Part shown: positions 5,539-18,275 of the stretch, one piece after another
Position numbering within the stretch: position 1 is the first letter of the stretch
How the letters are laid out: every line of letters begins with the position of its first letter
Origin: a virus
DNA: 20,568 bases
IMG/VR virus record: IMGVR_UViG_3300034101_005222
Span: 1 to 20,568 of that record
Strand: one strand, 5' to 3'
The notes under the pieces: model-generated
What the model was told of the DNA's origin: nothing
Database searches by the model: none
The model's input: only the letters and a program-made list of their open reading frames with translations
Translations under genes and position numbers: made by a program

Positions 5539-5650
5539 GAACAGCGAAGGCGCGAAGGCGCGAAGCAGGGAAGCGGACAGGTTCTTTCCTGCTTTCCAGC
5601 TTTCCAGATTGCTCCGTCGGCCCTTTGCGTCCTTCGCGGCTTCGCTGTTC
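5539..5650. repeat. Inverted repeat pair A with nested B arm
   Basis: Arms at 5539-5565 (gaacagcgaaggcgcgaagg start) and 5622-5650 are complementary over nearly their full length. A copy of repeat B lies at 5585-5610 between them. The block fills most of the gap between two structural genes. Transcribed, it could fold into a long hairpin. Confidence 0.85.
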
Positions 5651-5667
5651 ATTTCTGGTTTCAGTAA

Positions 5668-5693
5668 GGGGCGGCCGGCGAACCGGCCGCCCC
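5668..5693 (-). terminator. Perfect 11-bp UUCG-loop hairpin after the structural gene
   Basis: On the minus strand ggggcggccgg, then loop ttcg, then ccggccgcccc, 18 bases after the stop at 5711. Only CCTTACTG follows, so it is not a canonical intrinsic terminator, though a stable stem here may stop transcription or protect an mRNA end. Confidence 0.42.
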
Positions 5694-5710
5694 GTGAGAG
5701 TTGCGGCAAC

Positions 5711-6277
5711 TTACCGGTTGGCTTTCTCCAACTGGTCGAGGTTGGCGATGGCCACCAGGAACCAGACTTCGCCCGAGGTCAGCACGGACAGGTTGGCGCC
5801 GGTGGCGGTGAACACGGCTTCCAGATCCCACGCCACGTTATGGCAGACGGGCTGGAGCTTGAGCACGCTGTTCAGCTTGGTGCGCAGCGACGCAATCACG
5901 GTGGATTCCTCCGTTCCGTAGGTGCCGTCCACCGTGTCGGTGGCCACGTCGGTGATTTCCACCGGGGTGGCGTCAATTTCCGTGGCGGCGCCGCAGATGC
6001 TGGTGTCCGCCTGGAAGGCGTCATCGTCATCGGTGCCGCTGGACAGGTTGTAACCAACCTTGACCACCAGCTCGGTGATGGATGGGCCGTCGAAGTCGGC
6101 GAGCAGGATATGGCCGACATAACGGAACGCCGTGTTGGCCGGCAGCGCGGCGATCAGGTCGAAGGTTCCGGCCGTGGACGCCGTGGCGGTCAGGTCGGTG
6201 TAAGGCACCTTGATGACGTGCGTGGCATTCAGCGCCAGCCGGGCTTCAATGGTGCTCAGGGGTAGAATAGTGGGCAT
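5711..6277 (-). CDS. Putative capsid-associated structural protein
   Basis: The protein has 188 residues. It lies 36 bases after the major capsid gene, where decoration, cement or neck proteins usually sit. The sequence is beta-rich in appearance, with Thr/Asp/Val alternation, DDDDAF at about residue 84, and a C-terminal SGEVWFLVAIANL strand. The region before the start contains GAGG at a reasonable spacing (CCGAGGACAATCACATG), so the ATG at 6277 is well supported. The gene is followed by a perfect 11-bp hairpin and an interspersed-repeat block, which may mark the end of a transcript segment. No family name can be given with confidence. Confidence 0.62.
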   Translation of the reverse strand: MPTILPLSTIEARLALNATHVIKVPYTDLTATASTAGTFDLIAALPANTAFRYVGHILLADFDGPSITELVVKVGYNLSSGTDDDDAFQADTSICGAATEIDATPVEITDVATDTVDGTYGTEESTVIASLRTKLNSVLKLQPVCHNVAWDLEAVFTATGANLSVLTSGEVWFLVAIANLDQLEKANR

Positions 6278-6313
6278 GTGATTGTCCTCGGTTCAGGTTA
6301 GTGTTGCCGGTGA

Positions 6314-7351
6314 TTACGAGGTCGCCTTGATCGCGAAGTTCGCCTTCGGATGCAGGCAGCGCAGGCCCACCAGGTTCTTGAATTCGGCGCTCCAGCCGCT
6401 GCCGTCGTAGGCGAGTTCTCTCTCGCTCTCGATGTTGCCGTCGAGGGCTTCCCAGGTGCTCATCTTCAGGCCGTAGCAGAAGCGGCTCATCTTGGCCGCC
6501 GTGCCGCCCAGCGCCGTGTGGGCGAGGAACAGGCTCGGGACCAGCTCCAGCTTGCCCCAGTCACCCTGGAAGGTGTCGATGGTCTGCCACAGCACGCGGG
6601 CCGCGAGGTCCGCGTTGTAGCTGTTGGTGGTGCGGTAGGCGTTGGTGCCGCTGGCAAACCCGGTGAGCGTGCTGATCTGCTGCTTGAACAGCCGGCCGCA
6701 CAGGCCCATGTAGGATTCGCCCAGCTTCACGCCGCCCCGTTCCCACGTCGCGCCCATCGCCCCGTTCAGCGTGTCCGCCGTGGTGCTGGACGTGGCCGTG
6801 GTCAGGATCTGCGAGCTGTTGGGCAACAGGTCCGCGCCCACGGAGTAACCGCTGGTGGCGATGCTCGTGGCGAGCCAGCCGCCGACGCCGCGCAGCTTGT
6901 TGGGCAATACCGCGGTGCCCACCTGCACGTCCTGTTCGGACAGATAGAGGGCTTCAAGGCAGTAGTTGAGCTGGCGCAGCGCCTTCATGCGCGCATACGC
7001 CTTCTTGGACTTGATGCCGGCTTGGTTCTGGATCTCCGCCAGCGGGCTCACGCCCTTGACGGTCCGGTTGAACTGGAGCCGGCCGGCGACCACGGTGTAG
7101 TCGCTCTGCGCGTTCTCCGCGGTGCCGGCGGGGTCGCCGTCAATCGTGGCGAGGTCCTGCACGGGTTCCTCCAGGTCGAACGGCCATTCGTCCACGAGGG
7201 ACGAAGGCGTGCCGATCCCGGTCTTCTTCACGGTGCTGACGAACGGCGTTTCCTTGCCGTCGAGGATCAGCACCTTGTCGAGCAGCGCCCGGCGGTCGCC
7301 GGTCGTGCTGGTGGTATTTCCGCCAACTTGGGTGGCGAGTAGTTGTGGCAT
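6314..7351 (-). CDS. Major capsid protein, SU10/DUF5309-like
   Basis: The protein has 345 residues and would form the icosahedral shell. The N-terminal region shows the sequence logic of the SU10 major capsid family (DUF5309, HK97 fold as recalled). An LDKVLILDGKETPFVSTVKK stretch is followed by a DEW motif, then an EG/GD-A segment, a long beta/helix region with FNRTVKGVSP, and a helix AYARMKALRQLNYCLEALYL. Length, central position after a scaffold-like gene and the downstream small virion genes all agree. The region before the ATG (CCGAGACACATCACATG) has no good Shine-Dalgarno, although this is expected to be the most expressed gene. Family assignment is from recall; the capsid role is the firmer part. 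Confidence 0.78.
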   Translation of the reverse strand: MPQLLATQVGGNTTSTTGDRRALLDKVLILDGKETPFVSTVKKTGIGTPSSLVDEWPFDLEEPVQDLATIDGDPAGTAENAQSDYTVVAGRLQFNRTVKGVSPLAEIQNQAGIKSKKAYARMKALRQLNYCLEALYLSEQDVQVGTAVLPNKLRGVGGWLATSIATSGYSVGADLLPNSSQILTTATSSTTADTLNGAMGATWERGGVKLGESYMGLCGRLFKQQISTLTGFASGTNAYRTTNSYNADLAARVLWQTIDTFQGDWGKLELVPSLFLAHTALGGTAAKMSRFCYGLKMSTWEALDGNIESERELAYDGSGWSAEFKNLVGLRCLHPKANFAIKATS

Positions 7352-7377
7352 GTGATGTGTCTCGGTCGTGCGCCGGG

Positions 7378-8538
7378 CTAGTAGTCCAGCGCCGCAAGCA
7401 GGGCTTTCTCACTGGGCTCCTGCTCAAACTGCTTCAGGGCAATCGCCTGTCGGCTCGCCGGCTGGCCGGTCGTGCGCGGGGCCGCCTTGGGGGCGGTCGC
7501 GCCCGGCCTTACGGCGGCGGGCTTGGCGGATGCGGACGCGGCGGGCTTGCGGCTGAGTTCCAGCCGGTGATCGAGTTCGGCGAGCGCCACGGCCACCTTG
7601 AGGCCGAGCGGATGCCGCTTGATCTCGGGCGTGCCCATGTATTGCGCGAACCGGTTCCACCGGGGATCGAGCTTCCGGCGCAACTGGGCCACCGTGGCGG
7701 TGTCCTCGTCGGCCTCGGCCTCGCGGAGCTGGTTCAACACCTCGGCGCTCGTCTGCACCCACGGCGCGACGGTCTCCACCTGCTGCCGGGCTTCCGCCCG
7801 CGCCGTGGTCTCCATCTGCTGCCGCCGTTGGGCCGCGGCCTGTTCGGCCGCCGTCAGCGTCGCCTTCGCTTCCGCCAGCTTGTCGCGCTGGTCGTCGGCG
7901 TAGTCGTTGAGCCATTCCCGCAGGCTTTCCTCGTCGGTGCCCACCCGGGGATCCACCTTGCGGATCTGTTCCGCCACGGCGTCCGGGTTGGTCTTCAGCA
8001 GGGCCTTGAGGTCGCGGGCCGCCTTCAGTTCCGCGTCCGCCTTGCTGGCGCGTTCGCGGTGCGGTTTCAGCTCGGGGTCCTCTGGCGTCGCGGCGGGTTC
8101 GGCGTCTGGTCGCATGGCTTGCGCCTTGGCTTCCAGGGCCTCCAGTCGTTCCTCCAGCGCCTTGCGCTTCGCGATCTCCTTGGCCAGCCGCCGGTAAGGC
8201 ACCGTCTGCGGTGTCTCCTCGGCTTCGGGCTCCGCTTCCGTCTCCGCGTCTCCCGTCTCCGCGTCTCCCGCGTTGGCTTCCGGGTCCGTGTCCGTCCCTG
8301 AGTCAGTTTGAGCAGGCGCTTCGTGGGCTTCCGCCCCGCCTGCCTGATTTGAAAGATCGGTCGTGGTTTCCTCCGCGGCACTCACCGCGGCGGGGTCTTC
8401 GAACAGGCGGGCGATGTCCGCGATAAGGCTGGCCTCGACCTGCTGTTCGGATTGCTGGCTGGGCGCGAGTTGCGCTCCGGTCACCGGCGTTGACGCCTCG
8501 CGGGCGCCGGGGGCGGTGGCCCCATTCGGTTCAGTCAT
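7378..8538 (-). CDS. Scaffolding-like protein, Ala/Glu-rich coiled coil
   Basis: The protein has 386 residues. The N-terminal 110 are low-complexity and acidic. A central region of long helices follows (RRLAKEIAKRKALEERLEAL; then DQRDKLAEAKATLTAAEQAA), then a Pro/Ala linker, and a C-terminal helix ending EKALLAALDY. High helix content, acidic composition and a place just before the capsid gene are the usual marks of a phage scaffold. The start at 8538 is chosen over an upstream GTG at 8601, whose extra residues derive from a hairpin. Residues 91-100 are GDAETGDAET, encoded by a 15-bp direct repeat of a family also found at another gene's end. No protease domain is seen. Confidence 0.65.
   Translation of the reverse strand: MTEPNGATAPGAREASTPVTGAQLAPSQQSEQQVEASLIADIARLFEDPAAVSAAEETTTDLSNQAGGAEAHEAPAQTDSGTDTDPEANAGDAETGDAETEAEPEAEETPQTVPYRRLAKEIAKRKALEERLEALEAKAQAMRPDAEPAATPEDPELKPHRERASKADAELKAARDLKALLKTNPDAVAEQIRKVDPRVGTDEESLREWLNDYADDQRDKLAEAKATLTAAEQAAAQRRQQMETTARAEARQQVETVAPWVQTSAEVLNQLREAEADEDTATVAQLRRKLDPRWNRFAQYMGTPEIKRHPLGLKVAVALAELDHRLELSRKPAASASAKPAAVRPGATAPKAAPRTTGQPASRQAIALKQFEQEPSEKALLAALDY
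8240..8269. repeat. Direct 15-bp duplication in the scaffold-like gene
   Basis: gtctccgcgtctccc occurs twice in tandem, encoding GDAETGDAET in frame. The same string type is at 14834-14871. Confidence 0.8.
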
Positions 8539-8600
8539 TTTGTTGGCTGCGGCGACAGGACCGCAGAATTCAGGCGTGTCGCATCCCGGGGTTAATGACA

Positions 8601-8624
8601 CCCGCCGGTCACTCGACCGGCGGG
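8601..8624 (-). terminator. Perfect 10-bp hairpin before scaffold-like gene
   Basis: cccgccggtc, a four-base loop, then gaccggcggg. It lies in the 222-base gap between the 79-residue gene and the scaffold-like gene. No U-run follows on the minus strand, so it may be an attenuator or processing site rather than a simple terminator. Confidence 0.4.
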
Positions 8625-8726
8625 CGCCGGAATGAAGCGGGGCCGCCAGACCGCGCTTGAGCCGGTTTCACCCGGCCCACTGCGCATAAAGCACGGTCGG
8701 GCGCCGCGGCCAATGGGGTGCCGGTC

Positions 8727-8756
8727 TTCGCCACCCTTCGCCACCCTTCGCCACCC
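8727..8756. repeat. Three tandem 10-bp units
   Basis: ttcgccaccc three times, directly after the stop of the 79-residue gene. No function is evident. Confidence 0.9.
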
Positions 8757-8760
8757 GAAG

Positions 8761-9000
8761 TTACCGAGCCGGCGGGGTGGGCTCGCCTTGGAGCCGTTGC
8801 AGCTCCTCGCCCAAATCATCCAGCGCCGTGAACGCGCCGGACTCAAACTCGCGGTCGCCGCTCGGCAGCTTGCTCGGCGGCAGCTTGTGCCGCAGCAACG
8901 CCTCCGCCCGCCGCGCCCGGATCAGCATGAGCACCGCCGGCAACGTCTGGTCGCCCGGCGGCAGGGACCGCAGGACTTTCTGCGCCTGTTCCAGGGTCAT
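8761..9000 (-). CDS. Unknown 79-residue protein after the portal
   Basis: This small, Leu/Arg-rich, probably helical protein (EQAQKVLRSLPPGDQTLPAV; RARRAEALLRHKLPP) has an acidic C-terminal helix (ALDDLGEELQRLQGE). The start overlaps the portal stop as ATGA, so it is co-translated with the portal. It could be a head-assembly accessory. No family is recognised. Immediately after its stop lie three tandem 10-bp repeats. Confidence 0.62.
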   Translation of the reverse strand: MTLEQAQKVLRSLPPGDQTLPAVLMLIRARRAEALLRHKLPPSKLPSGDREFESGAFTALDDLGEELQRLQGEPTPPAR

Positions 9001-11189
9001 TGGCCGCCCTCCATCGGTTGCACGCCCAGCCGGCCGACCACCTTGTTCTGCTGCTGCACGGCGCTCTGCTGCCGGTTCTGCGCCCAGTTCTGCATGGCCA
9101 GGGCAAACCGGCCCTCGGGATTGCCCACGAGTTCCTTCTGGTAGAACGGATTCGCGCCGACGATCTGCTGGGCAAACCCAAGCTGCGCGGGCGCCGTCGG
9201 GTCGTTCTCGACGAGTCGCGGCGGATTGCCGAGGAACATGGCGGCGATGTCCGCGTTCACCTGTTCCTGCAACTTGGCGCTGGCGCTGGCGTCGCTCACC
9301 AGCAGCGATTGCGCCAGCAACGGGTCCACCGCCATCAGCTTCATCCGCACCAGTTGCGTCTTGTCGATGACGCCGGCGGCGTCCTCGGGCACCACGAACT
9401 GCGAGATGGCCTGGAGCTTCTTGATGCTGAATTCCATGTCCTGGTCGCGCACGTCGGTCTGAAGAATGATCCCCGTCTCGCCCGCGATGACCGCGCCCGC
9501 CAGCTCGGGCTTGGGTGTGCCGGTCACGCCTTCCCATTCGGTCGGCGTCGTGTATTGCTGCATGAGCGCCCACATCTGCTGGAACACCTCGTTCCACAGG
9601 CTCAGGAAGTTCGACACCATGCGCTGCTGTTTCATCTGCACCCGGGCCGGCGCCGCGGTGGGTGTCATGCGGCCGAACCGCTGGTCGGCGATCTCCAGCT
9701 CCAGCCGGATGATGCTTTCCGCCACGCCATCGTGGCCGGGCAATTCCATGAACCGCGGTTCCTCGCCCCGCAGTGTCGGGATGCGCGCCGCCGGGCCGAA
9801 CACATCCTGTTCGTCCATCATGCGCGACGGCACCAACCGCGGGGGCAGGGTGGTGAGCGAGGTCCGGTCAATGAGCGAATCCTGCTGCACCTTGATGCTG
9901 CGTTGCTGCGGGAACGCCCGTTCCGGCACGCCGCGGCTCGCGGTCAGGCTGCGGCACCACCATTCCGCCGCGCTGCTGGCAAAGGGCATCTTGCCATGCT
10001 TGAAGTCGCACAGGCCATGCCGGGCACACAGTTCCTTCTCGTTGTCCTCGGGGTCGTGCGTGAAGTGCGGCGAGAACACGGTCACGTAAACGCCCGGCAC
10101 CCCATACTCGTCGAGCCGGGTGGTGTAGGCGGTGATGACTTCGACCAGGTTCACGCCGTCTTCGGTGTCGGCCACGTAATCGGTCTCATGCACGCGGGCG
10201 CGGCCCTTGTCGGCCTCGTCGGTCCACGTCGAGTATTTGCCCCGGCTCGCCCACGCCTGTTCGATCCATTCGTGGTCCCAGCCGTCGGTGTATTCCTTGG
10301 CCCGCAGTTCGTCCTCGGCCAGCCGTTCGCGCACGAACACCTGGCCGGTGGACGTGTCGCCCTGCTCGTCGGGCACAAACACGTCGCGCCACGGTTGCAG
10401 CGCCCGGATCAGCGGTTGGTTCCGCATCAGCGCCGGCACGGCCAGCTCGATGGCTTCGCCGGCCCGCAGGGTTTTGACCAGCGCCTTGGCCTCGGTCATC
10501 GAAAGCTCGGGCATCCGTTCCAGTTCCATGCCGTCGAGTTCCGCGGCCACGCGCTGCGCATACACCTGCCGCAACAGTTCGGCCGACAGTTCGTCCTGCA
10601 TCGGGTCCGCCACCAGCACGGCCAAGTCGGGCGCGAGGCTTGCGGCGTCGTTGAAGCTGAGCTTCACCTTGCGTTTGCCCAGCCGGCGGTCCCAGCCGAC
10701 TTGCACCACCACCCAGCCGTAGGTGCGCTGGTATTGCGCGGCCAGCTCCACCTCGCGTTGCAGCGATTCGTTGAGCTTGGTCCGCACCATCCAGTAAATC
10801 ATGCGGCTCGCCACGGCGGCGGCGGCGGCGTCGCGCACCTGCGTGCCCTCGGCCTTCGTGAGCGAACGCCAGAAGGCGTTCACCAGGATGTCCACGTCGT
10901 CGGCGATGATGTCGTCGGCCAGCAACACGCGCTGGTCACTGGCGCCCTCCCACGGCATTGCCTTGAAGTCGCCCGCACTGTGCTTGCGACAGTCGCGGGA
11001 CTGGTTCTCCCACAGGGCGAACCGGATGCGTTCCGCGTCGTAAAGCCGGTTGAAGGCGCCGCCGCTGGGCGAGCACCGCTGGAAGGTCTGCGTGAGGTCC
11101 GCCAGCCGTGGCTGGTCGGGATCGAGCACCACGGAGGGTGACCCGTCATCGTGGTCGGTTGATGTCATGGCCTTGCGCTGCGCTGGCAT
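8997..11189 (-). CDS. Portal protein
   Basis: The protein has 730 residues, the size of large podovirus-type portals. The N terminus has a helical core (RIRFALWENQSRDC; PWEGASDQRVLLADDIIADD) that resembles other phage portals. The middle has PWRDVFVPDEQGD and ERLAEDELRAKEY. A later region (SSAAEWWCRSLTASRGVPER; DSLIDRTSLTTLPPRLVPSR) fits the wing and crown-side part of the family, and the C-terminal 80 residues are Gln/Asn-rich. The place between terminase and scaffold/capsid genes supports the call. It forms the ring through which DNA is packaged and ejected. An internal ATG at 11168 is an equally possible start, and neither has a good Shine-Dalgarno. No C-terminal lysozyme-like domain is visible. 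Confidence 0.78.
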   Translation of the reverse strand: MPAQRKAMTSTDHDDGSPSVVLDPDQPRLADLTQTFQRCSPSGGAFNRLYDAERIRFALWENQSRDCRKHSAGDFKAMPWEGASDQRVLLADDIIADDVDILVNAFWRSLTKAEGTQVRDAAAAAVASRMIYWMVRTKLNESLQREVELAAQYQRTYGWVVVQVGWDRRLGKRKVKLSFNDAASLAPDLAVLVADPMQDELSAELLRQVYAQRVAAELDGMELERMPELSMTEAKALVKTLRAGEAIELAVPALMRNQPLIRALQPWRDVFVPDEQGDTSTGQVFVRERLAEDELRAKEYTDGWDHEWIEQAWASRGKYSTWTDEADKGRARVHETDYVADTEDGVNLVEVITAYTTRLDEYGVPGVYVTVFSPHFTHDPEDNEKELCARHGLCDFKHGKMPFASSAAEWWCRSLTASRGVPERAFPQQRSIKVQQDSLIDRTSLTTLPPRLVPSRMMDEQDVFGPAARIPTLRGEEPRFMELPGHDGVAESIIRLELEIADQRFGRMTPTAAPARVQMKQQRMVSNFLSLWNEVFQQMWALMQQYTTPTEWEGVTGTPKPELAGAVIAGETGIILQTDVRDQDMEFSIKKLQAISQFVVPEDAAGVIDKTQLVRMKLMAVDPLLAQSLLVSDASASAKLQEQVNADIAAMFLGNPPRLVENDPTAPAQLGFAQQIVGANPFYQKELVGNPEGRFALAMQNWAQNRQQSAVQQQNKVVGRLGVQPMEGGQ

Positions 11190-11253: not shown

Positions 11254-11331
11254 GAACAGCGAAGGCGCGAAGGCGCGAAGCGGGGAACGTCATGGCTTTG
11301 CCTTCCTTCGCGTCTTCGCGTCTTCGCTGTT
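11254..11331. repeat. Inverted repeat pair A between HTH gene and portal
   Basis: Arms 11254-11280 and 11306-11331 are inverted copies that differ at only two positions, both able to form G-U pairs in RNA. The pair could form a stem of about 25 base pairs in the 155-base gap before the portal gene. Confidence 0.88.
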
Positions 11332-11344
11332 AATCCCATGCCGG

Positions 11345-11551
11345 TCACTGCTGATACCCGCACAGTTCCCCCACATCCACCTTGCAATAGCGCACCCGTT
11401 TCCCGGTGCGCCCCACCTTCAGCGTCCGAAGCCGGCCCACGTCCACCAGCGCCCGGATGTCTGTTTTATACAGCCCCGTGAACCGGCACACCGTTTCCAA
11501 CGGCACCCACGCCGGCAACCCCATCCACGTCTTCCTGCTGATCTCGTCCAT
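11345..11551 (-). CDS. Small excisionase/MerR-type HTH protein
   Basis: The protein has 68 residues. Nearly its whole length is a winged helix-turn-helix of the excisionase/HTH_17 type: WVPLETVCRFTGLYKTDIR gives the recognition helices, followed by a basic wing (LKVGRTGKRVRY) and a short C-terminal helix (KVDVGELCGY). It lies between the adenine methyltransferase and the portal. This could be a transcription regulator of the late block or a DNA-recognition partner of packaging. Small terminase subunits are often HTH proteins near the large subunit, but this one is shorter than usual for that role. Confidence 0.68.
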   Translation of the reverse strand: MDEISRKTWMGLPAWVPLETVCRFTGLYKTDIRALVDVGRLRTLKVGRTGKRVRYCKVDVGELCGYQQ

Positions 11552-11583
11552 AGTGTCTTTGTGTTCTGCTCCTAGATGTTTGC

Positions 11584-12120
11584 TCACAAAACTACCAACC
11601 GCCCCGGAAGGCCGCTTGCCCGGATTGCCATTACATTCTCTGCCCCAAAAGCTATAAGGCAGCTTGGCGCCGGACTTGTGTTTCCGGGCTCGCCGGTGAC
11701 GTGGTAAAAGGTAAGCCGGCCTTTGAAGAAGAAGACTGCGGTGGCCGCCTGCCATACGTAATCGTGAAACATGCGGGTCTCTGTGCGAGCAAAGGTAAGT
11801 GCGATTGCGTTTCCGTGGTCGTGACACCGCGCCAACCATTTGCAGGTCTCGTCGCCATACGGCGGATTGCACCAAACCCGGCCCTCCCACGGCTTCAACA
11901 ACCCGTTGTCCTCGAAAGTGTAATGGCGGGCGGCCATTTCCCAGGGGCGAACCCGCGGTGCGCACGGGTCCAAATCAAATGATCCCAGCGCGCGGATTAT
12001 TCCTGGCGGAGTAAGCCATTCATCCTTGCCTCGCTCCACCCGCTCAAAGTGGCCAAAGCCACCAATCTCCGGTGCCGCGTCAATCTGGCCGTTCAAAAGA
12101 AACTGCTGCCCTGTGCTCAT
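11584..12120 (-). CDS. Phage DNA N6-adenine methyltransferase (Dam-like family)
   Basis: The protein has 178 residues, in the range of the phage Dam-type adenine methyltransferase family (PF05869 as recalled). Conserved blocks appear in order: DEWLTPPGIIRALGSFDLDP (residues 33-52), YTFEDNGLLKPWEGRVWC, the catalytic NPPY (85-88), HGNAIALTFARTET, and the final CLIAFG. It would methylate adenine in phage DNA, most likely to resist host restriction. The start is preceded by AGGAAG inside an interspersed repeat that runs from the terminase stop codon to this ATG, so the repeat appears to supply the ribosome-binding site. No cognate nuclease gene is in the window. Confidence 0.88.
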   Translation of the reverse strand: MSTGQQFLLNGQIDAAPEIGGFGHFERVERGKDEWLTPPGIIRALGSFDLDPCAPRVRPWEMAARHYTFEDNGLLKPWEGRVWCNPPYGDETCKWLARCHDHGNAIALTFARTETRMFHDYVWQAATAVFFFKGRLTFYHVTGEPGNTSPAPSCLIAFGAENVMAIRASGLPGRLVVL

Positions 12121-12150
12121 GTCTTCCTGCTTTCCTGCCTTTCAAATTCA
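12120..12150. repeat. Repeat B arm filling the terminase-methyltransferase gap
   Basis: From the terminase TGA (12150-12148) to the methyltransferase ATG (12120-12118), the minus strand reads TGAATTTGAAAGGCAGGAAA then GCAGGAAGACATG. This is a B copy that holds both the stop and the ribosome-binding site. Confidence 0.82.
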
Positions 12151-14049
12151 ATAAGCGTAACCCGCCTTCGCCCGGAACATCCCCGGCGTGACATGCACCA
12201 GCTCGTCGTCCTGCGCCACGTAACGCACGAGGTCCGCCGGGTCCTTGCACGCGCCGTCCTCGCCGCCGCGCCCGGTGAAATTCTCGAACATCCACATCAC
12301 CTGCTGCGCCGCGTCGCTCACGCAGAGCCTCGGTTCATTCACCACCGCGCACAGCGGCTGCTGCTCGTCGAAACTCAGCAGGTCATGCACGGCCGTCACG
12401 CCGTTGTCATCGCCCCGGCCCGTGTAGGCGGGAATCAGGTCCACGCCCTCATGCACCTGGCCGCGCTCCTCCTGCTTCGCCGCGAACAGCTCGATCAGGT
12501 TCGTGCCGCCCTTCTCGGCCGCCTGCGGATTCATCGCCGCCCGCGGGTCAATCTTCCGCAGTTGGATCGGATACCGCACCACCACCCCCCGCTTCCGCAC
12601 CTCCGCAACTTCCTCCCGTCCCCACTTCATTCTGCCTTCTTCCTTCTTCATTCCGCCTTTGGCCATGGCCTCGTCCAACAACCGCCTCGCCATCGGGTCC
12701 TGCGCCTTCCATTCCCCGTCCGCGCCCAGCTCCAACGGAATCGTCTCCAGCTCCTTCAGCAGCCGTTTGTAGCGGGTCACGCCATAGCCCAGGTTCATCT
12801 GCGCCGGGCCCGCGTCGCCATCCCAGCCGTGCCGGGAATCCTGCGTCACCTTGCGTTCCGTCGGCACCGCCCACTCGCCGTAGGTCTGGCAGTCGGGCCA
12901 ATCCTTCCAGATGAACAGCCGGCGCGGATTGCCCGGCGCCACGCGCACGTAGAGCAGGAACCAGTTGCGCGCCCCGGCCGGGTCGATGAACAGGTAGTTC
13001 GTCCCCTCCGCCGGCAGCTCGCGCTCGCGCACGACATGCACGTTGCGGTTGAACGTCGGGAACTGGAGCCCCATCACGTCCTTGGTGAACCCGTAGAAGA
13101 TTCGCAGCACGTAATCCCGCGGCTTGCCCTCAACCGCCCGCGCCACCTGCTGCCCGTAGGTCTCGCCGCCGCTGCCGAACACCGTCATGTCCGAGTGGAA
13201 GTAAACCACCCGCGTGCGCTGGATGGCCCCGGCCTGCACCAGCGGCACGCGCCCCGGCCGGCACCCTTCGACCAGCACTTGGTTCTGCGGCAGGATCTTC
13301 GCCACCTTCGTCCGCAGAATCTTGCCCGTGCCCACCGCCTCCTTGATCGCCGGCGTGATGCCGTTGATCGGCGTGAAGCTCCACACGCCGTAGCCGGGCC
13401 GATACTCACCGCGCCGCCGCAGCATGGTCAGCCACGGGATCGGCGCGTTCTCGTCGAGCCACCACGCCACGCCGTAACCCTCGCGGGCGCCGAACTCGAA
13501 CCCCTCGAACTCCGCCGGGTCGCCGCGATACGTGGCGAACAGCAGCTTCACCCCGCTCGGCAGCACCAGGATGCGGTCGGCGAACCCGTTCTTCGGATCG
13601 TAACCGATGCTGAACACGCGCCGCGGATCGCGCCGGCCGTTCAACGCCTTCAGGTCCGGCGGCAGGAAACGCCACACCAGTTGCTGCGCCGTCTCGATGC
13701 TGCTCCGCTCCGTCTCCGACCCCACGAGGAACCGGGCATCGCTGCCCGCGTCCTGCGACAGCATTTCCAGCACCAGATGATAGGCGCAGTAGAACGACTT
13801 GCCCGACCGATTGCCCCCGAGCAACACCAGCAACTTGGGCCGATACCGCCGCACCACGCGCCGCGTGAGCTTCCACGACTTCATGGGCGGCAGGAACTGG
13901 AGCGGGTCCCGTTCCGCGTCCGCAATCGCCTGCCGGCGCCGGCTCAGGAAATCGCCCAGCCCCCGCTCCCCGTGATTCCGCAAGATCGCCCGCGCCTGCC
14001 GCTCCGTCGGCAACGCAAACAGCGGATGTTGTGGCTCCTGCTCAAACAT
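12148..14049 (-). CDS. terL: Terminase large subunit (packaging ATPase-nuclease)
   Basis: The protein has 633 residues. The ATPase half has Walker A GGNRSGKS at 78-85 and a Walker B-like region AWWLDEN at 195-201. The nuclease half begins with NYLFIDPAGARN (catalytic-type Asp356) and later has IDPRAA at 500-505, followed by the conserved GVDLIPAY, GVTAVHDLL and KDPADLVRYV elements of terminase nucleases. It cuts concatemeric DNA and pumps it through the portal. Residues about 465-481 (GGMKKEEGRMKWGREEV) look unlike the rest and match a GA-rich repeat-type insertion in frame. ATG 14049 (MFEQEP) is preferred over an upstream TTG at 14085, whose extra codons come from a repeat arm. Confidence 0.9.
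   Translation of the reverse strand: MFEQEPQHPLFALPTERQARAILRNHGERGLGDFLSRRRQAIADAERDPLQFLPPMKSWKLTRRVVRRYRPKLLVLLGGNRSGKSFYCAYHLVLEMLSQDAGSDARFLVGSETERSSIETAQQLVWRFLPPDLKALNGRRDPRRVFSIGYDPKNGFADRILVLPSGVKLLFATYRGDPAEFEGFEFGAREGYGVAWWLDENAPIPWLTMLRRRGEYRPGYGVWSFTPINGITPAIKEAVGTGKILRTKVAKILPQNQVLVEGCRPGRVPLVQAGAIQRTRVVYFHSDMTVFGSGGETYGQQVARAVEGKPRDYVLRIFYGFTKDVMGLQFPTFNRNVHVVRERELPAEGTNYLFIDPAGARNWFLLYVRVAPGNPRRLFIWKDWPDCQTYGEWAVPTERKVTQDSRHGWDGDAGPAQMNLGYGVTRYKRLLKELETIPLELGADGEWKAQDPMARRLLDEAMAKGGMKKEEGRMKWGREEVAEVRKRGVVVRYPIQLRKIDPRAAMNPQAAEKGGTNLIELFAAKQEERGQVHEGVDLIPAYTGRGDDNGVTAVHDLLSFDEQQPLCAVVNEPRLCVSDAAQQVMWMFENFTGRGGEDGACKDPADLVRYVAQDDELVHVTPGMFRAKAGYAY
12624..12660. repeat. GA-rich in-frame insertion in the terminase gene
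   Basis: Minus strand AAAGGCGGAATGAAGAAGGA then AGAAGGCAGAATGAAG, with an internal near-repeat of GGCRGAATGAAG. It encodes KGGMKKEEGRMK between conserved terminase blocks and resembles the other GA-rich junction repeats. Confidence 0.65.
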
Positions 14050-14068
14050 GGTCAGGCAAATCGGGATG

Positions 14069-14095
14069 GAACAGCGGAGGCGCAAAGGCGCGAAG
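14069..14095. repeat. Repeat A arm, left side of small-gene cassette
   Basis: This degenerate copy of the A arm (gaacagcggaggcgcaaagg) sits between the terminase start and the end of the gene at 14104. It is inverted relative to the copy at 14784-14810, so the two arms bracket three small genes. Its extension (gcgggaacgtca) is shared with the 11254 copy. Confidence 0.75.
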
Positions 14096-14103
14096 CGGGA
14101 ACG

Positions 14104-14355
14104 TCACAGCTTGGCATGGTCCCATTCTTCAATCGCAACCACGTCTTCGGTGAATACGGATTCACGAAGGCGGAAGGCAATTTCATCCCCCGCCTCCACC
14201 AGCCGGCGGATGCGCTTGTTGGCCGCGGCCAGATCGATTTCGAGTTGATCGGCGTGGTCCAGTGCCAGCTTCAATCCGTCTCCCGGATTCATGAAGTCTC
14301 CAATAGCGATGGTTTGACGGATTCCATTCGTCCTCGGTGTTGGTGTGTCGCTCAT
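14104..14355 (-). CDS. Small MSDTP protein with duplicated coil segment
   Basis: This 83-residue protein starts MSDTPTPRT. A central coiled-coil helix (LEIDLAAANKRIRRLVEAGD) is nearly identical, at DNA level, to a segment of the gene at 14573-14812 (62 of 63 bases). It shares its MSDTP start with the gene immediately upstream (16 identical bases through the ATG). SDTPRT starts followed by Asp/Ala/Arg/Leu coils occur in many phage hypothetical proteins (recalled). The function is unknown. The start overlaps the previous stop as ATGA. The stop codon falls just inside the extension of a repeat arm. Confidence 0.62.
   Translation of the reverse strand: MSDTPTPRTNGIRQTIAIGDFMNPGDGLKLALDHADQLEIDLAAANKRIRRLVEAGDEIAFRLRESVFTEDVVAIEEWDHAKL
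14184..14246. repeat. 63-bp direct repeat, copy 1
   Basis: It is 62 of 63 bases identical to 14647-14709 and encodes the LEIDLAAANKRIRRL coil in two small genes. Confidence 0.92.
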
Positions 14356-14576
14356 TTCAACCTCCGTTCCGCGTCTTCGATCATCGCAACCAACTGTTTC
14401 GCGTTATCAAATGCCCAACGCTCGGTTTTGATCGTGAAGTATTTTCCAGCGCCTCCGTCGTGAGATTCGATTTCGATGTATTGGCCAATCGTGCTGTCGT
14501 CGCAGCAGTCGTTTTCCTGCCCATAGGTCAGTTGCCCGGCTTCCATGACCGGCTCTTTTTTTGGTGTGTCGCTCAT
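14352..14576 (-). CDS. Small unknown MSDTP protein
   Basis: This 74-residue protein begins MSDTPKKEPVMEAGQL. It contains ENDCCDDST and a beta-like GQYIEIESHDGG then GKYFTIKTERWAF pattern, ending with a helix (KQLVAMIEDAERRL). It overlaps both neighbours as ATGA. The helical tail resembles a short coil but is not a copy of its neighbours' duplicated segment. A moron-type accessory role is inferred; no family is recognised. Confidence 0.6.
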   Translation of the reverse strand: MSDTPKKEPVMEAGQLTYGQENDCCDDSTIGQYIEIESHDGGAGKYFTIKTERWAFDNAKQLVAMIEDAERRLK

Positions 14577-14812
14577 GCTTTTGCCTCCTTGGCTTTGGTC
14601 CATTGGTGAGTTTGTAACGTCGGGTGGTGAAATTGCTGGAATAACGCATCCCCCGCCTCCTCCAGCCGGCGGATGCGCTTGTTGGCCGCGGCCAGATCGA
14701 TTTCGAGTTTGCAGTGGGAGCAAAGCAGGCTGGGCGACTCAACGCGCCGCACGGAACAACCATTGCACCAATACACCCATTCACTTCGCGTCTTAACGTC
14801 TTCGCTGTTCAT
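14573..14812 (-). CDS. Small zinc-ribbon plus coil protein beginning in an interspersed repeat
   Basis: The protein has 79 residues. The first nine codons (MNSEDVKTR) are a copy of the GA-rich repeat arm present elsewhere only in gaps. Two Cys pairs follow (CNGC at 16-19 and CSHC at 31-34), a likely zinc-ribbon knuckle. Then comes the coil LEIDLAAANKRIRRLEEAGD, shared with the gene at 14104-14355. The start overlaps the upstream stop as ATGA. The layout suggests a mosaic built from a repeat-derived start, a zinc ribbon and a duplicated coil. The function is unknown; nucleic-acid or protein binding is plausible. Confidence 0.62.
   Translation of the reverse strand: MNSEDVKTRSEWVYWCNGCSVRRVESPSLLCSHCKLEIDLAAANKRIRRLEEAGDALFQQFHHPTLQTHQWTKAKEAKA
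14647..14709. repeat. 63-bp direct repeat, copy 2
   Basis: Partner of 14184-14246; one base differs (ccacc against cctcc). Confidence 0.92.
14784..14810. repeat. Repeat A arm, encodes a gene start
   Basis: This inverse A arm (plus strand cttcgcgtcttaacgtcttc) supplies the first codons MNSEDVKTR of the zinc-ribbon gene and its ATG. Confidence 0.8.
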
Positions 14813-15201
14813 TTGGTTTTCCTTTGCTTTGCCGTCTCCGCGTCTCCGCGTCTTCCCCTCTCCGCGTCTCCGACCACCCGTTCCCATTCCCTTAGCCAAT
14901 GCAGGCACGCCGAGGGGTTGGCGATCTGCCGTTGCCAGCAGACCAGATCCAGCATGGCCTCGCGTTCCAGTTCCGCCGACGGCCCGGCCGACCACGCCGC
15001 GTGATACTGCGTGGTGCGATCCGCGACCCACCGCTCAATCGTGGCGTCGGTCTGGCGCCACACCCAATTGGCCACCAGCGCGGCGTCGCCGTTGCGCCAC
15101 GGGGCGGGTCCGTTCCGCGCCGGCCACGCCGCCGTCGCCTCCGCCGTGGGCACCGTCCCCCACCGCTGCTTGGGCACCTCCGTCTCAGGGTTCACACTCA
15201 T
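14809..15201 (-). CDS. Unknown Trp-rich protein with repeat-derived C terminus
   Basis: The protein has 130 residues and many Trp (EATAAWPARNGPAPWRNGDA; ANWVWRQTDATIERWVADRT). The start at 15201 is chosen because it overlaps the preceding stop as ATGA. An in-frame ATG at 15207 lies in the repeat arm just before. Residues 111-124 (GDAERGRRGDAETA) come from the same repeat family as the in-frame duplication inside the scaffold-like gene. It may be an accessory gene carried between the replication and packaging blocks. No family is recognised. Confidence 0.6.
   Translation of the reverse strand: MSVNPETEVPKQRWGTVPTAEATAAWPARNGPAPWRNGDAALVANWVWRQTDATIERWVADRTTQYHAAWSAGPSAELEREAMLDLVCWQRQIANPSACLHWLREWERVVGDAERGRRGDAETAKQRKTK
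14834..14871. repeat. GTCTCCGC-type repeat at the end of the Trp-rich gene
   Basis: gtctccgcgtctccgcgtct, then ctctccgcgtctccg, encodes GDAERGRRGDAET. It is related to the duplication in the scaffold-like gene. Confidence 0.75.
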
Positions 15202-15470
15202 GGGCATTTGAATCTGGAAGGCAGGAAATCAGGAAGCGGCTCCACCAAGACCACCCGCAGCTTGAGCGGGCGCAAGTCCGGGCGTTCAAACCGTTGTTGC
15301 GCCTTCGTGTTGTAAAACGCCCACCGGACCGAAGGGGGATGCGGCAGGTCTAGGCTCCTGTATGCCTCGATGCGGCCTGGGTCAAAATCAGCCCAGATGA
15401 ATTTAGGTGGTTTCACGTCTTCGTTTCCCCTGTTTGCTTCTGTTCCTGCCTTCCTGTTTTCCAGATTCAT
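15198..15470 (-). CDS. Small unknown gene bounded at both ends by inverted repeats
   Basis: This 90-residue protein starts MNLENRKAGTEANRGNED and ends FLPSRFKCP. Both ends are encoded by arms of the same repeat in opposite orientation. The unique core, about residues 20-80 (PPKFIWADFDPGRIEAYRSL; then RPDLRPLKLRVVLVEPLP), has no family I recognise. The start is supported by GGAGG eight bases before the ATG, itself in a neighbouring repeat. The whole unit reads as a cassette between the helicase and the next gene. A later internal start would remove the repeat N terminus, but no better ATG is seen. Confidence 0.6.
   Translation of the reverse strand: MNLENRKAGTEANRGNEDVKPPKFIWADFDPGRIEAYRSLDLPHPPSVRWAFYNTKAQQRFERPDLRPLKLRVVLVEPLPDFLPSRFKCP
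15205..15236. repeat. Repeat B arm, C-terminal end of cassette gene
   Basis: Plus strand catttgaatctggaaggcag followed by gaaatcaggaag. It encodes FLPSRFKC on the minus strand and abuts the next start codon. It is the inverted partner of the arm at 15441-15475. Confidence 0.85.
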
Positions 15471-15475
15471 CTTCG
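15441..15475. repeat. Repeat B arm, N-terminal end of cassette gene
   Basis: Its minus-strand reading begins ACGAAGATGAATCTGGAAAA. A nearly identical block lies at 18238-18270, including the bases before the ATG. It encodes MNLENRKAG. Confidence 0.88.
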
Positions 15476-15498
15476 TTCCCTCCGTTCCCTTCTGTTCC
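15471..15498. repeat. GGAACGRAG-type repeat before the cassette gene
   Basis: The minus-strand string of GGAAC(A/G)-type units gives the GGAGG ribosome-binding site of the cassette gene. A related degenerate copy lies just inside the gene at 15416-15446 (residues TEANRGNED). Confidence 0.6.
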
Positions 15499-15499
15499 G

Positions 15500-17038
15500 T
15501 CACTGCGGCAACTCCTGCGGGGTCTCGTCGTTGTCCACGTGCGCGTCGATGAACCGCATCCACGGTTTCACGAACACCAGCTCGCACGGCCCGGTCGGGC
15601 CATTGCGCTGCTTCACGATGAACAAATCCCGCCGCTGGCAATGCTTCTCCAGATCGTCCCGCAGCTCGGCCGGCAGCGATGCCACCGCCCGGCTCTGCAT
15701 CCACGCGAGCTTGCGCTCGGCGATGGCCCGCTTTACGTCGTCGTCGCTGGCGATGTCCCGCTTCGCCCGCGTGAGGTCCACCTTCTTGAGGAACGCCACC
15801 ACGTCGGCGTCGGCCGTGGGTTTCGCGCTGTCCTTCAGGTCGCTCAACTGCGGCTCGCGCTCGCGCTCGGCGCGCTCCGCGTTGAAGTTCTCCTGCGCCA
15901 GCACGATGAAGGGCACGTTCAGCTCCTTCTTCAGCTTCATCAGGCCGTCGCTCACGTCGCTGATCCGCATGTTGAGGTCGCGATAGTTCACGCCACTGCG
16001 CCCGCCCATGAGTTGCAGGTAGTCGATCACGAACAACTTCACGCCGTGCTCGCGCACCATGCGCCGCGCCCGGATGGACAGCTCGTCGATGTTCAGGCCG
16101 CTGCTGTCGTCCACGTGCAGCGGAATCCGCTTCATGGCGTTGCACGCCTTGGTGAGCAGCGCCGCGTCCGTCTCCCGCAGGAACCCGTTGCGATACGACT
16201 GGAAGTTCACGCCTGCCCGCTGGAACACCAACCGGCTGGCCAGTTGCAGCCGGTTCATTTCCAGCGAGAACATGCCCACGGGCGCCCCTTCCACCGACGC
16301 CACGTGGTCGGCGATCTGCAAGGCCAGCGCCGTCTTCCCGCCGCCGGGCCCGGCCGCGATGATGATGTATTCCGCCGGCTTGAGGCCGCACAGGATGTTG
16401 TCGAGGAAGTTCAGCCCCGTGCCGAAACCCTTCATCTGCTTGCGCCCCTGGCGGAACGATTCCAGCTCGGCGATGACGCTGCGAAACTCCTCGTGCACCG
16501 GCTTGGCCGCCGCCTTGGCATCCTGCACCGCGAGGTCCATGGCCGCGGCGCTGAAGCGGTTGGCCAGCTCCATGGCGTTGGTGCAACTGTGAACCTGCTG
16601 GATCATCGCCACACACTCGCGCTCCATCCGCCGCAGCAACCACTTGTCCGCCACGATGTCGGTGTATTGCCCGACGTTCACGGCGCTCGGCACCGCGTCG
16701 CACAGCGCCGACAACGCGGCGAGCCCGCCCACTTCGTCGAGCTTGCCCGTGTCGCGGAGCCGCTGCTGCACCGTCATCAGGTCAATCGCCTTGCCCTCGT
16801 CGCTCAGCGCCACCAGCGCAAACCACAGCTCGCGATGCCGCAGGTCGTAGAACGCCAGGCCATCCAGCCCCAGCTTCTCGATCACCACCGGGAGCGCGTC
16901 CTGCGGCGCCAGCAGGCAACACCCCAGCACGCCCGCCTCCGCGTCCGGCGAATTCGGCGGCAGACGGTCGCCCGCGGCCGGGGTCGCGCCGCGCCGCGCC
17001 GGGGCAGGGGCTTCATAGGCTGTGTCAAAGTCACTCAT
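15500..17038 (-). CDS. dnaB: Replicative DNA helicase, DnaB family
   Basis: The protein has 512 residues. The DnaB N-terminal domain is recognisable (NSPDAEAGVLGCCLLAPQ; HRELWFALVALSDEGKAIDL). The RecA-like core has Walker A AGPGGGKTA (229-237), FSLEMNRLQLASRL, Walker B-type LFVIDYLQLMGG (335-346), and QLSDLKDS leading into ADADVVAFL. The arginine-finger segment KQRNGPTG is at 476-483. Between ADADVVAFL and this finger lie about 58 residues (including RAKRDIASDDDVKRAIAERK), longer than the usual spacing as I recall the family. It unwinds the phage fork, probably loaded with help from the wHTH initiator upstream. The start overlaps the methyltransferase stop as ATGA. Confidence 0.9.
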   Translation of the reverse strand: MSDFDTAYEAPAPARRGATPAAGDRLPPNSPDAEAGVLGCCLLAPQDALPVVIEKLGLDGLAFYDLRHRELWFALVALSDEGKAIDLMTVQQRLRDTGKLDEVGGLAALSALCDAVPSAVNVGQYTDIVADKWLLRRMERECVAMIQQVHSCTNAMELANRFSAAAMDLAVQDAKAAAKPVHEEFRSVIAELESFRQGRKQMKGFGTGLNFLDNILCGLKPAEYIIIAAGPGGGKTALALQIADHVASVEGAPVGMFSLEMNRLQLASRLVFQRAGVNFQSYRNGFLRETDAALLTKACNAMKRIPLHVDDSSGLNIDELSIRARRMVREHGVKLFVIDYLQLMGGRSGVNYRDLNMRISDVSDGLMKLKKELNVPFIVLAQENFNAERAEREREPQLSDLKDSAKPTADADVVAFLKKVDLTRAKRDIASDDDVKRAIAERKLAWMQSRAVASLPAELRDDLEKHCQRRDLFIVKQRNGPTGPCELVFVKPWMRFIDAHVDNDETPQELPQ

Positions 17039-17904
17039 GCGAAATACCTCATCAATTCCCGGCCCACCCATTCAGCCACCGGAACGGAAACACCGTTGCC
17101 AATCTGCCGGTAGGCATCGCGTTCTGTGCCCGCAAAGGTAAAAGTGTCGGGCACTCCCTGAAGCCGGGCATACTCGCGGACCGTGTAGGGCCGCGCCCCA
17201 CCGGGATAACGGGCATCGGCCACCATCCTTGTGCTCACATCCTTGGCGTAGTGAGCGACACAGGTCGGAGCCAGCTCGTCGCGGGCCGGGTCGGAGATAA
17301 TCGGCCGGTCGCGATAACCACCCCGCAGCCGTTTCGCCACGTAGTCGGGCAGGTCAGTAACAGGCCGGTCCTCGATGATCTCGGCCAGGGTGACGCGCCG
17401 CTTGGCCTCGGGCAGTCGCCACGCAAAGTTCCGCCGGCTGCCCAAGATGATAAGCCGATCCCGCCGCTGGGGCAGCCACGTGCAGCTTTTGACCGGGCAG
17501 AAGACGTTCACAAAGTAATCGGGCAGGGCGGTCATTGCCTCCATCACCACCGGGAATTTTCGCATGCCCGGCACGTTCTCAACCACGTATGCCTCGGGTC
17601 GGCGAAGGGCCAGATGCCGGAAGAAGTGCAGGAACAGCTCATCGCCCGTGCGCGTGCCATGGATGTCGGCGATGGGGCTGTATTTCGTGCAGGGGTAGGT
17701 GGCCACCAACACATCGGCTGGCCGCTCGTCCGCGGCCAGCTTCGCGGCCATGTCCGTCTGCCGAACGTCGTGTGTGAAATTGCGGCGCAACGTCTGGCAG
17801 CAGGTCTCGTTCAGCTCGAACGATTGCTGGACCTCAAGCCCGGCACGGTGCAGGCCCAAGTCCATCAGACCAGCGCCCGAGAAATAGCTGTTTACGCGAA
17901 TCAT
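17035..17904 (-). CDS. DNA cytosine-5 methyltransferase
   Basis: The protein has 289 residues, a compact C5-methyltransferase. The conserved motifs follow the family order: SYFSGAGLMDLGL (motif I, SAM binding), ATYPCTKYS with catalytic Cys72 (motif IV), YVVENVPGM (motif VI), LPQRRDRLIILGSR (motif VIII), then RPYTVREYARLQGVPD and RQIGNGVSVPVAEWVGREL (motifs IX-X). It would modify phage DNA, most likely against host restriction. The start overlaps the previous stop as ATGA, and AGGAA in the preceding repeat arm could serve as the ribosome-binding site. No nuclease partner is adjacent, so this is a solitary methyltransferase. Confidence 0.9.
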   Translation of the reverse strand: MIRVNSYFSGAGLMDLGLHRAGLEVQQSFELNETCCQTLRRNFTHDVRQTDMAAKLAADERPADVLVATYPCTKYSPIADIHGTRTGDELFLHFFRHLALRRPEAYVVENVPGMRKFPVVMEAMTALPDYFVNVFCPVKSCTWLPQRRDRLIILGSRRNFAWRLPEAKRRVTLAEIIEDRPVTDLPDYVAKRLRGGYRDRPIISDPARDELAPTCVAHYAKDVSTRMVADARYPGGARPYTVREYARLQGVPDTFTFAGTERDAYRQIGNGVSVPVAEWVGRELMRYFA

Positions 17905-18152
17905 GTTCCTGCTTTCCTGCCTTCCAAATTCTCCGCCGGCTCCGCGCTCGGCTCCGGAGGCACGCGGGACATCCACGCGCCGCGGGCGGGGCGCCCCAGC
18001 CGGAACAGCCGCTCGCGGCCCCGGGGCGAGATCAGCCGCAGTTGCCCGCCCGCATTGCGCCACCGCCACCGCCGCGCCTCCGGCTGCTCGGGATCGGTCC
18101 GCACCGTGACCACCCCAAAACTCACCCGATGCCATGTCGGTCCCGTGTTCAT
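17901..18152 (-). CDS. Unknown 83-residue basic protein with repeat-encoded tail
   Basis: The protein is Arg/Trp-rich: MNTGPTWHRVSFGVVTVRTD, then ARRWRWRNAGGQLRLISPRG, then LFRLGRPARGAWMSRVPPEP. Its last nine residues (NLEGRKAGT) are the translation of an interspersed repeat, whose same bases supply the next gene's ribosome-binding region. The stop overlaps the methyltransferase start as ATGA. Strands with conserved-looking Trp and Arg suggest a small nucleic-acid-linked domain, but no family is recognised. Confidence 0.58.
   Translation of the reverse strand: MNTGPTWHRVSFGVVTVRTDPEQPEARRWRWRNAGGQLRLISPRGRERLFRLGRPARGAWMSRVPPEPSAEPAENLEGRKAGT
17905..17931. repeat. Repeat B arm before cytosine methyltransferase
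   Basis: Minus-strand GAATTTGGAAGGCAGGAAAG then CAGGAAC leads directly into ATG. It encodes the tail NLEGRKAGT of the upstream gene and offers AGGAA as a ribosome-binding site. Confidence 0.82.
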
Positions 18153-18155
18153 GGG

Positions 18156-18266
18156 TCATTTGAATCTGGAAGGCAGGAAAGCAGGAAAGGAATGACCAAT
18201 GAGCAATGACCAATGGCCCAACACCTTCCCGCTTCCGCTTCCTGCCTTCCTGTTTTCCAGATTCAT
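18156..18266 (-). CDS. Possible 36-residue ORF made almost wholly of repeats
   Basis: The frame runs from MNLENRKAG to FLPSRFK and is composed of one repeat arm, a short linker (SGSGKV), a CAATG-type repeat segment (LGHWSLLIGH) and the inverse arm. It opens and closes like the cassette gene at 15198-15470 but has no unique core. It may be an empty cassette or chance translation. A G-rich stretch (GGAGGGGGGC) lies upstream. It is listed because it has the same start and end layout as the real gene; expression is unproven. Confidence 0.2.
   Translation of the reverse strand: MNLENRKAGSGSGKVLGHWSLLIGHSFPAFLPSRFK
18157..18190. repeat. Repeat B arm before the gene at 17901-18152
   Basis: Plus strand catttgaatctggaaggcag followed by gaaagcaggaaagg. 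It is the inverted partner of 18238-18270 and lies five bases before the start codon of the downstream gene. Confidence 0.85.
18191..18216. repeat. CAATG-type repeat
   Basis: The string aatgaccaatgagcaatgac followed by caatgg repeats a 7-base-spaced CAATGA/CAATG motif between the two B arms. It forms the core of the otherwise empty cassette. Confidence 0.65.
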
Positions 18267-18270
18267 CTTC
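18238..18270. repeat. Repeat B arm after the initiator gene
   Basis: It has the same core as 15441-15475. Just after the initiator stop it supplies the ATG of the 36-residue repeat ORF. Confidence 0.85.
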
Positions 18271-18275
18271 GTGCC

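Follow-up and report, generated by a model that had tools for sequence, protein, structure and literature searches.

Short repeats shared with verrucomicrobial genomes as candidate recombination joints at the borders of phage gene cassettes

Results and Discussion

Repeat families of the window

The stretch of DNA analysed here (the window) is the entire IMG/VR virus record IMGVR_UViG_3300034101_005222 (20,568 nucleotides), which is classed as linear and belongs to a kind of record that is often a fragment. It encodes a major head protein, a terminase, a DnaB-like helicase, a DnaD-like loader and DNA methyltransferases, with all called genes on the minus strand, and carries several families of short repeats (Table 1), of which A and B are the main subject of this work. 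Comparison with related phage contigs suggests that what these repeats mark best is the boundary of variable gene content, and we consider it somewhat probable that repeats dispersed in bacterial genomes serve, or have at least been retained, as joints at which cassettes are exchanged by recombination.

Family B (GAATCTGGAAGGCAGGAAAGCAGGAA) is present in seven copies and family A (AACAGCGAAGGCGCGAAGGCGCGAAG) in six, the latter with 0–6 mismatches, as an earlier note made from the sequence alone had reported. Neither set arises by shuffling: the 22-nucleotide (nt) core of B, searched with at most 3 mismatches, matches the window seven times versus 0 in each of 100 dinucleotide shuffles, and A, at the same tolerance, four times versus 0 in 100 shuffles. 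The reversed pattern served as a further control, and in 29 phage contigs (414 kilobases), gathered by the A or B patterns or by similarity of terminase and helicase, it matched 0 times for B and 3 times for A. The smaller families hold up in part: C (1 copy), D (3, one of which overlaps an A copy) and E (2) gave no reversed match in the window and are also found in further phage contigs, where their reversed patterns matched 0, 0 and 1 times; family F, with 1 copy and 1 reversed match in the window and 12 reversed matches over the 29 contigs, is unsupported and was left out of the statistics.

A and B are purine-rich, ∼26 nt long and composed of about three units of 8 base pairs (bp). The quasi-tandem period is likewise 8 in D, 7 in C and F, and 9 in E. 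Both A and B are stop-free in all frames apart from a TGA at the very start; many copies start with (A)TGAA, and B includes AGGA. The longest self-complementary word is 4 nt in A and shorter than 4 nt in B. GTAG or CGTC stands at neither end of the A or B consensus (no systematic test was made), and GACG, which reads CGTC on the opposite strand, occurs inside some A copies. Rfam yields no match at the gathering score in the window or in four related loci (L016, L019, L027, L031).

Homology breaks and variable cassettes at the repeats

The window is contained, nearly identical, in a longer contig, G079 (43,857 bases). Since related loci are redundant elsewhere (our counts of block edges, close pairs and junctions over all loci include them), the argument rests on non-redundant copy sets and on two contigs, G079 and G080. 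One locus (L073) was excluded because it overlaps other loci of the same contig, and a distant relative with no copy of the families (L074) was retained.

On G079 (bases 1–40,000) and the whole of G080, homology breaks at 17 of 20 junctions that carry a repeat versus 13 of 68 that do not (odds ratio 15.8 by the Mantel-Haenszel method with three classes of gap length). Five hand-chosen representative loci give 25/27 versus 9/42, and all loci, redundancy included, 113/132 versus 63/266; in 45 viral loci, which are related and not independent, the homologous blocks have 548 distinct edges, and 197 of these come no more than 12 nt from an A, B or C copy, where 20.5 would be expected if edges were placed uniformly. 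The coincidence of homology breaks with repeats is thus directly observed. At the 36 distinct A/B edges on G079 and G080, the repeat lies within the shared block 23 times and outside it 13 times. For 22 edges, the repeat is present in both genomes and no more than 15 nt separate its far end from the end of the block; for 13 of the 36, this distance is at most 1 nt. In these alignments homology appears to switch at the repeat, the behaviour by which phage boundary sequences are recognised.

Comparison of the window with near relatives (mostly 90–100% identical where aligned) revealed eight variable regions, five of which have a repeat at one edge at least. At B copy 2, the Dam-type methyltransferase gene is missing in four relatives (L046, L049, L066, L069) and the repeat is retained directly before the next gene. 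The locus bounded by B copies 3 and 4 is seen with four alternative contents between the B arms. Even more variable is the locus 17039–17905 beside the constant B copy 5, for which five alternative contents were found (window, L049, L065, L066, L067): three C5 methyltransferase genes, a small open reading frame (ORF) between A arms, and QueC together with a PHROG 15826 protein, which is perhaps a DNA 7-deazaguanine transferase. The C5 methyltransferases of L049 and L066, the latter accompanied by two small ORFs, are 48% identical, and that of the window is far from both. The short unit formed by B copies 6 and 7 is missing entirely in L066 and L067.

Cassettes also recur in other surroundings. 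The QueC cassette, situated at one B site in L067, recurs 88% identical between B arms immediately before the terminase gene of another backbone, in L016, L036 and L043, and the flanks that hold it there enclose other contents in L027 and L030. Together with its B arms, a loop of 134 nt is the sole stretch of at least 100 nt and at least 80% identity that L026 shares with L016, L027, L029, L038 and L043. It lies at 600–900 in L016, 300–580 in L026 and 10060–10350 in L027, contains no long ORF, and gave no Rfam match in L016 and L027, the two of its six loci that were searched. On visual comparison, L026 has flanks like those of L031, where the loop is 23 nt long. Judged from these comparisons, one set of flanks can enclose several different cassettes, and one cassette can recur in more than one set of flanks.

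Three side observations concern other parts of the window. The region 969–3405, the body of a large gene upstream of the tail-end genes, is replaced in relatives without repeats at its edges. A segment at 14325–14675 is 99% identical in L016, L017, L036 and L043, whose remaining sequence does not match the window, and a 63-nt duplication (98%) at 14184–14246 and 14647–14709 lies in small genes. Imperfect repeats with a period of 12 nt occur at 18750–18847 within the DnaD-like loader gene.

Table 1. Repeats and cassette genes of the window.
Feature	Position	Strand	Remarks
Repeat B copy 1	5586..5611	-	Within inverted A pair, intergenic 5528-5710; 3 mismatches
Repeat B copy 2	12124..12149	-	Terminase stop to Dam-type methyltransferase start; retained without methyltransferase
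Repeat B copy 3	15210..15235	+	Right arm (gene sense) of variable cassette locus
Repeat B copy 4	15443..15468	-	Left arm of 15210-15468 locus; ATG and N-terminus MNLENRKAG of possible cassette ORF
Repeat B copy 5	17906..17931	-	Constant edge of hypervariable DNA-modification locus
Repeat B copy 6	18162..18187	+	Right arm of short B>C<B unit
Repeat B copy 7	18239..18264	-	Left arm of short B>C<B unit
Repeat A copy 1	5540..5565	+	
Repeat A copy 2	5624..5649	-	6 mismatches; inverted partner of A copy 1
Repeat A copy 3	11255..11280	+	Hairpin arm with A copy 4
Repeat A copy 4	11306..11331	-	Hairpin arm with A copy 3
Repeat A copy 5	14070..14095	+	Reversed, upstream of terminase gene
Repeat A copy 6	14784..14809	-	ATG and N-terminus MNSEDVKTRSE of small ORF; breakpoint in relatives
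Repeat C (AATGACCAATGAGCAATGACCAA)	18191..18213	+	Loop of B pair
Repeat D (CGGAGACG, period 8)	14835..14872	-	Two copies, overlapping
Repeat E (period 9)	15471..15498	-	Adjoins B copy 4
Dam-type adenine methyltransferase (PF05869), cassette gene	11584..12120	-	Present or absent at B copy 2
Possible cassette ORF between B arms	15198..15471	-	Three other contents in relatives
C5 cytosine methyltransferase (PF00145), cassette gene	17035..17904	-	Docked at B copy 5

Copies in bacterial genomes

The pattern TYTGGAAGGCAGGAAAGCAGGAA was found in contigs of three metagenome-assembled genomes, all titled Verrucomicrobia, which contain 46, 28 and 19 B copies when searched with the 22-nt core at no more than 3 mismatches, the reversed control giving 0. 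With these three included, B is present in 14 of 78 genomes around one of the repeat-bearing genomes, G003: ten have 12–89 copies, four have 1–5, and 64 have none. A is present in 9 of 13 genomes tried, again with no match to the reversed pattern, and was not found at up to 3 mismatches in the B-bearing genome G001. The suggestion in the earlier note that similar strings are common between genes of Verrucomicrobiota and related bacteria is borne out for some verrucomicrobial genomes, with dozens of copies each. In three genomes with a coding share of 0.82–0.89, B is mostly extragenic, with 14 of 102 copies inside called genes, and shows no close tie to gene ends (20 of 102; 3/26, 13/33, 4/43).

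Bacterial copies often come in pairs. In four genomes, 40 of the 43 close pairs (at most 300 nt apart) have convergent arms, and many of the loops measure 12–30 nt; in G001, unlike the other genomes, the loops measure at least 75 nt. Convergent pairs take in 80 of the 146 bacterial B copies examined in four genomes and leave 66 unpaired, and by eye the loops look unrelated. Nested hairpins of the form A> B> loop <B <A occur at 1440–1625 of L088 (G002, contig 134) and at 9938–10118 of L079 (G003, contig 110), and such nested arms have predicted folds near -100 kcal/mol. Permutation tests on 8, 10 and 16 pairs from three genomes detected no clear covariation of the arms (p 0.11, 0.12 and 0.77). 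Two further observations were made on single genomes: in G024 (L126–L145) the arms of B pairs tend by eye to differ in one constant manner, the left arm showing AAAACAGGAAAG and the right arm AAAGCAGGAAAA, as though each end had an identity of its own, and stretches L106–L125 of G001 contain more quasi-tandem repeated words (AGTCCAAAGTCCAA, AGATGGGAGATGGG, GTTGAAGGGTTGAA).

Recombination joints or passive repeats

On balance, we favour the view that A and B are short shared homologies at which phages would recombine with one another, with prophages or with the host, and that a gene with a repeat at its end could dock in this way beside conserved phage genes. A joint inside the repeat would often leave a usable start, stop or coding sequence, because the frames are stop-free except for the initial TGA, many copies begin with (A)TGAA, and B contains AGGA; coupling of translation would then be an occasional by-product and a minor consequence of the joints. 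We infer the recombination inside the repeats, as well as its partner and its enzyme. Contact with host and prophage DNA is likely, since G079 (outside the window; PHROG 1, E 8e-16) and G080 (PHROG 1) both have an integrase-family gene. B copies were also seen at 1386–1411 of L157 and 18603–18628 of L155, at the end of one integrase-family gene and beside the start of another.

Several points weigh against recombination at the repeats. Three of the eight variable regions (969–3405, 14227–14330 and 18468–19187) have a repeat at neither edge, and several cassettes have one at a single edge only, the other edge being a plain gene boundary (11550–11560, 17010–17044). Most phage loci were obtained because they have an A or B copy, and the similarity within a family lets alignments run through the repeat even if exchange happened alongside it. 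Where the repeat lies outside the shared block, 12 of the 13 edges have no recognised copy in the other genome, and those edges are hence explained by the repeat itself having been gained or lost. In 11 phage records, the Pfam Phage_integrase model reached its cut-off in none (3 weak matches) and a RecT-type annealing protein was found in none, these records being possibly fragments. Finally, no host of this phage is proven: a shared terminase as a clue to the host was found in 0 of 8 repeat-bearing genomes, the 293 genomes belonging to the same order as G003 include 6 with a terminase match (best 43% identity), and among six short loci fetched from those terminase-matching genomes one has one A-like copy. 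Among GenBank phages, a protein search returned one record, at 28% identity.

The strongest alternative, rather unlikely in our judgement, is that A and B are neutral or selfish intergenic elements of bacteria which survive passively in phages at junctions, chiefly in accessory regions exchanged by other means. In its favour are bacterial genomes with dozens of copies lacking a tight preference for gene ends, a patchy distribution among related genomes, and partner arms that are not clearly more alike than non-partners and thus give no sign of selection for hairpins; the 12 edges that resemble gain or loss of a repeat likewise fit. Passive survival does not account as readily for the excess of breaks, which persists among junctions of similar gap length, nor for the 13 of 36 edges at which a block stops no more than 1 nt from the distal end of a repeat present in both genomes. 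We prefer recombination at the repeats because it explains the data most simply, passive marking being less probable.

It is tempting to extend the proposal, and here we are more tentative, to a bacterial lineage and its temperate phages that share standard repeat ends, with cassettes armed by B or A docking at B-marked sites across unrelated backbones, the host's possibly among them. If so, these phages would draw on a common gene pool in which DNA-modification genes pass quickly from one phage to another. The repeats may also help to link uncultured phages to their hosts.

Position at gene ends and translation

Next to recombination, the position of the repeats bears on translation. The 46 phage loci contain 144 B copies, of which 78 are non-redundant; 53 of these 78 abut a called gene end, versus 11% for random placement and 25% for random placement in gaps, and the corresponding number for A is 25 of 40 (10% and 28%). 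Placement relative to gene ends in related phages is hence not random. Among the 78 B copies, same-strand stops (26) lead over same-strand starts (14, versus 3.4% at random), opposite starts (13) and opposite stops (13), and the repeat's own TGA is the stop in 9 copies. An exception is B copy 1, located 58 and 99 nt away from the nearest called gene ends. Genes were called with a program written for this analysis, which recovered 36 of 47 annotated starts in an Escherichia coli control and overlooks small cassette ORFs; its accuracy in these phages is not established.

The earlier note had proposed a portable coupling module, in which the repeat makes stop, ribosome-binding site and start between co-translated genes. 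We regard this as distinctly improbable, even though its details are accurate. B copy 2 extends from the terminase stop TGA to 3 nt short of the methyltransferase ATG, and, as described above, directly precedes the start of the next gene in relatives without the methyltransferase; B copy 5 codes for the tail of an 83-residue ORF whose stop overlaps the next ATG (ATGA), so that both junctions do combine a stop, an AGGAA-bearing copy and a following start. The reversed B copies 3 and 6, whose closeness to start codons had also been pointed out, lie 2 and 9 nt upstream of those at 15207 and 18152, and same-strand starts follow B more often than expected at random. However, the combination of a preceding same-strand stop with a following same-strand start is seen at 7 of 78 B copies and at none of 40 A copies, and the reverse orientation is about equally common.

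Moreover, no clear Shine-Dalgarno signal is seen at called starts in the phages or in four bacterial genomes (G001, G002, G003, G024). Shine-Dalgarno-like tetramers precede 21 of 140 repeat-free phage starts in ten loci (15%, random 12%), 8 of 26 repeat-bearing phage starts, and 7–12% of the bacterial starts (random 10–13%). With the same script, E. coli K-12 has Shine-Dalgarno sequences at 34 of 47 annotated and 30 of 47 called starts (random 6%), and its clear upstream G peak is missing in the phages and the four bacterial genomes. The AGGAA in B is therefore weak evidence of a ribosome-binding site; it could still work in single cases, because the 16S rRNA of one genome (G024) retains the anti-Shine-Dalgarno sequence CCTCC. 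Taken together, the stop and start counts and the missing Shine-Dalgarno signal speak against a ribosome-binding module as the main role of the repeats.

Hairpins and site-specific systems

Less probable still is a role of the repeats as hairpin arms that terminate transcription or stabilise RNA at operon junctions. Convergent orientation in 36 of the 42 close pairs found in phages, related loci counted in, and in most bacterial pairs, together with the strong folds predicted for nested arms, would be in line with such a role, and at least 5 T residues occur within 20 nt after 2 of 35 bacterial hairpins. Such a T-run is absent on that side in the other 33 of 35, however, and a matching A-run is absent on the opposite side in 34 of 35; phage loops range from 22 nt to more than 1 kilobase, some containing genes, many copies are unpaired, and the arms do not covary.

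Site-specific cassette exchange, as with the attC sites of integrons or the ends of transposons, is hardly credible and was rejected, since none of 11 phage B><B units and none of 34 bacterial ones (loops of at most 130 nt) has the attC core motifs RYYYAAC and GTTRRRY near its ends, the loops look unrelated, and Y1 transposase counts do not track B copy number (Y1_Tnp, subtypes taken together, matched in 21 of 21 genomes, with 1–5 matches in ten B-rich genomes and 1–26 in eleven without B). The appeal of such a system lies in the one- to three-gene cassettes, often methyltransferases, which recall the attC clusters described for phages in the available part of one report (PMC9892861).

Relation to known systems

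Among known systems, integron attC cassettes of phages, whose core includes GTTRRRY, share with the present loci the exchange of small methyltransferase cassettes, as far as the accessible text of their description goes (PMC9892861). The present B><B units differ in that attC core sites were not found in them. Repetitive extragenic palindromic (REP) sequences, typically more than 100 per genome in the portion at hand of one account (PMC2817692), are represented in the verrucomicrobium O. terrae by GTAG-type members, according to an extract of another (PMC3733652). Like REPs, REP doublets forming hairpins (REPINs) and bacterial interspersed mosaic elements (BIMEs), A and B are short, extragenic in bacteria, present in many copies per genome and often in opposite orientations. 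Unlike REPs, one A or B arm has no inner palindrome above 4 nt and instead an internal 8-bp period, and B reaches up to 89 copies with a copy number that shows no parallel to Y1 transposase counts.

The boundary sequences of lambdoid phages are themselves phage sequences. Short and conserved, they flank exchanged modules and are explained by homologous recombination in the sections available of PMC2327257, which also portray the origin of phage mosaicism at gene boundaries as debated between illegitimate recombination and short shared or diverged homology. In contrast to the lambdoid case, one dispersed bacterial family serves many unrelated junctions here and forms inverted arms. As candidate joints that are visible, repeated, found in bacteria too and tied to swaps of DNA-modification genes, the repeats make that debate testable at named bases.

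The earlier note knew of no named phage system of this kind; start-associated sequences (SAS) of cluster K mycobacteriophages, similar in position, are one. In the parts of their description that could be consulted (PMC3203893), they contain a Shine-Dalgarno core, stand typically in one orientation 3–7 bp before starts, have no consensus copy in the M. smegmatis host, and have an extended form (ESAS) made of inverted 17-bp repeats and a spacer. Both systems place numerous short repeats at the gene junctions of each phage genome (PMC3203893, same parts). A and B, by contrast, are found in either orientation and adjoin stops more frequently than starts, and some bacterial genomes contain dozens of copies.

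T4-type phages are reported to contain PeSLs (promoter early stem-loops; Arbiol 2010), said to comprise an early promoter and a stem-loop and to act as mobile regulatory cassettes, small intergenic elements that mediate gene shuffling. A and B differ from PeSLs in being bacterial repeats as well. No description of A or B was found in the open-licence literature on Verrucomicrobia repeats or on phage boundaries and cassettes, among the matches listed, and a search for the strings of A, B, D and three similar repeats gave matches for only one of these three, in two papers on animals. The nearest kin of A and B are hence phage boundary sequences, SAS and PeSLs, from all of which they are distinct as a dispersed repeat of bacterial genomes.

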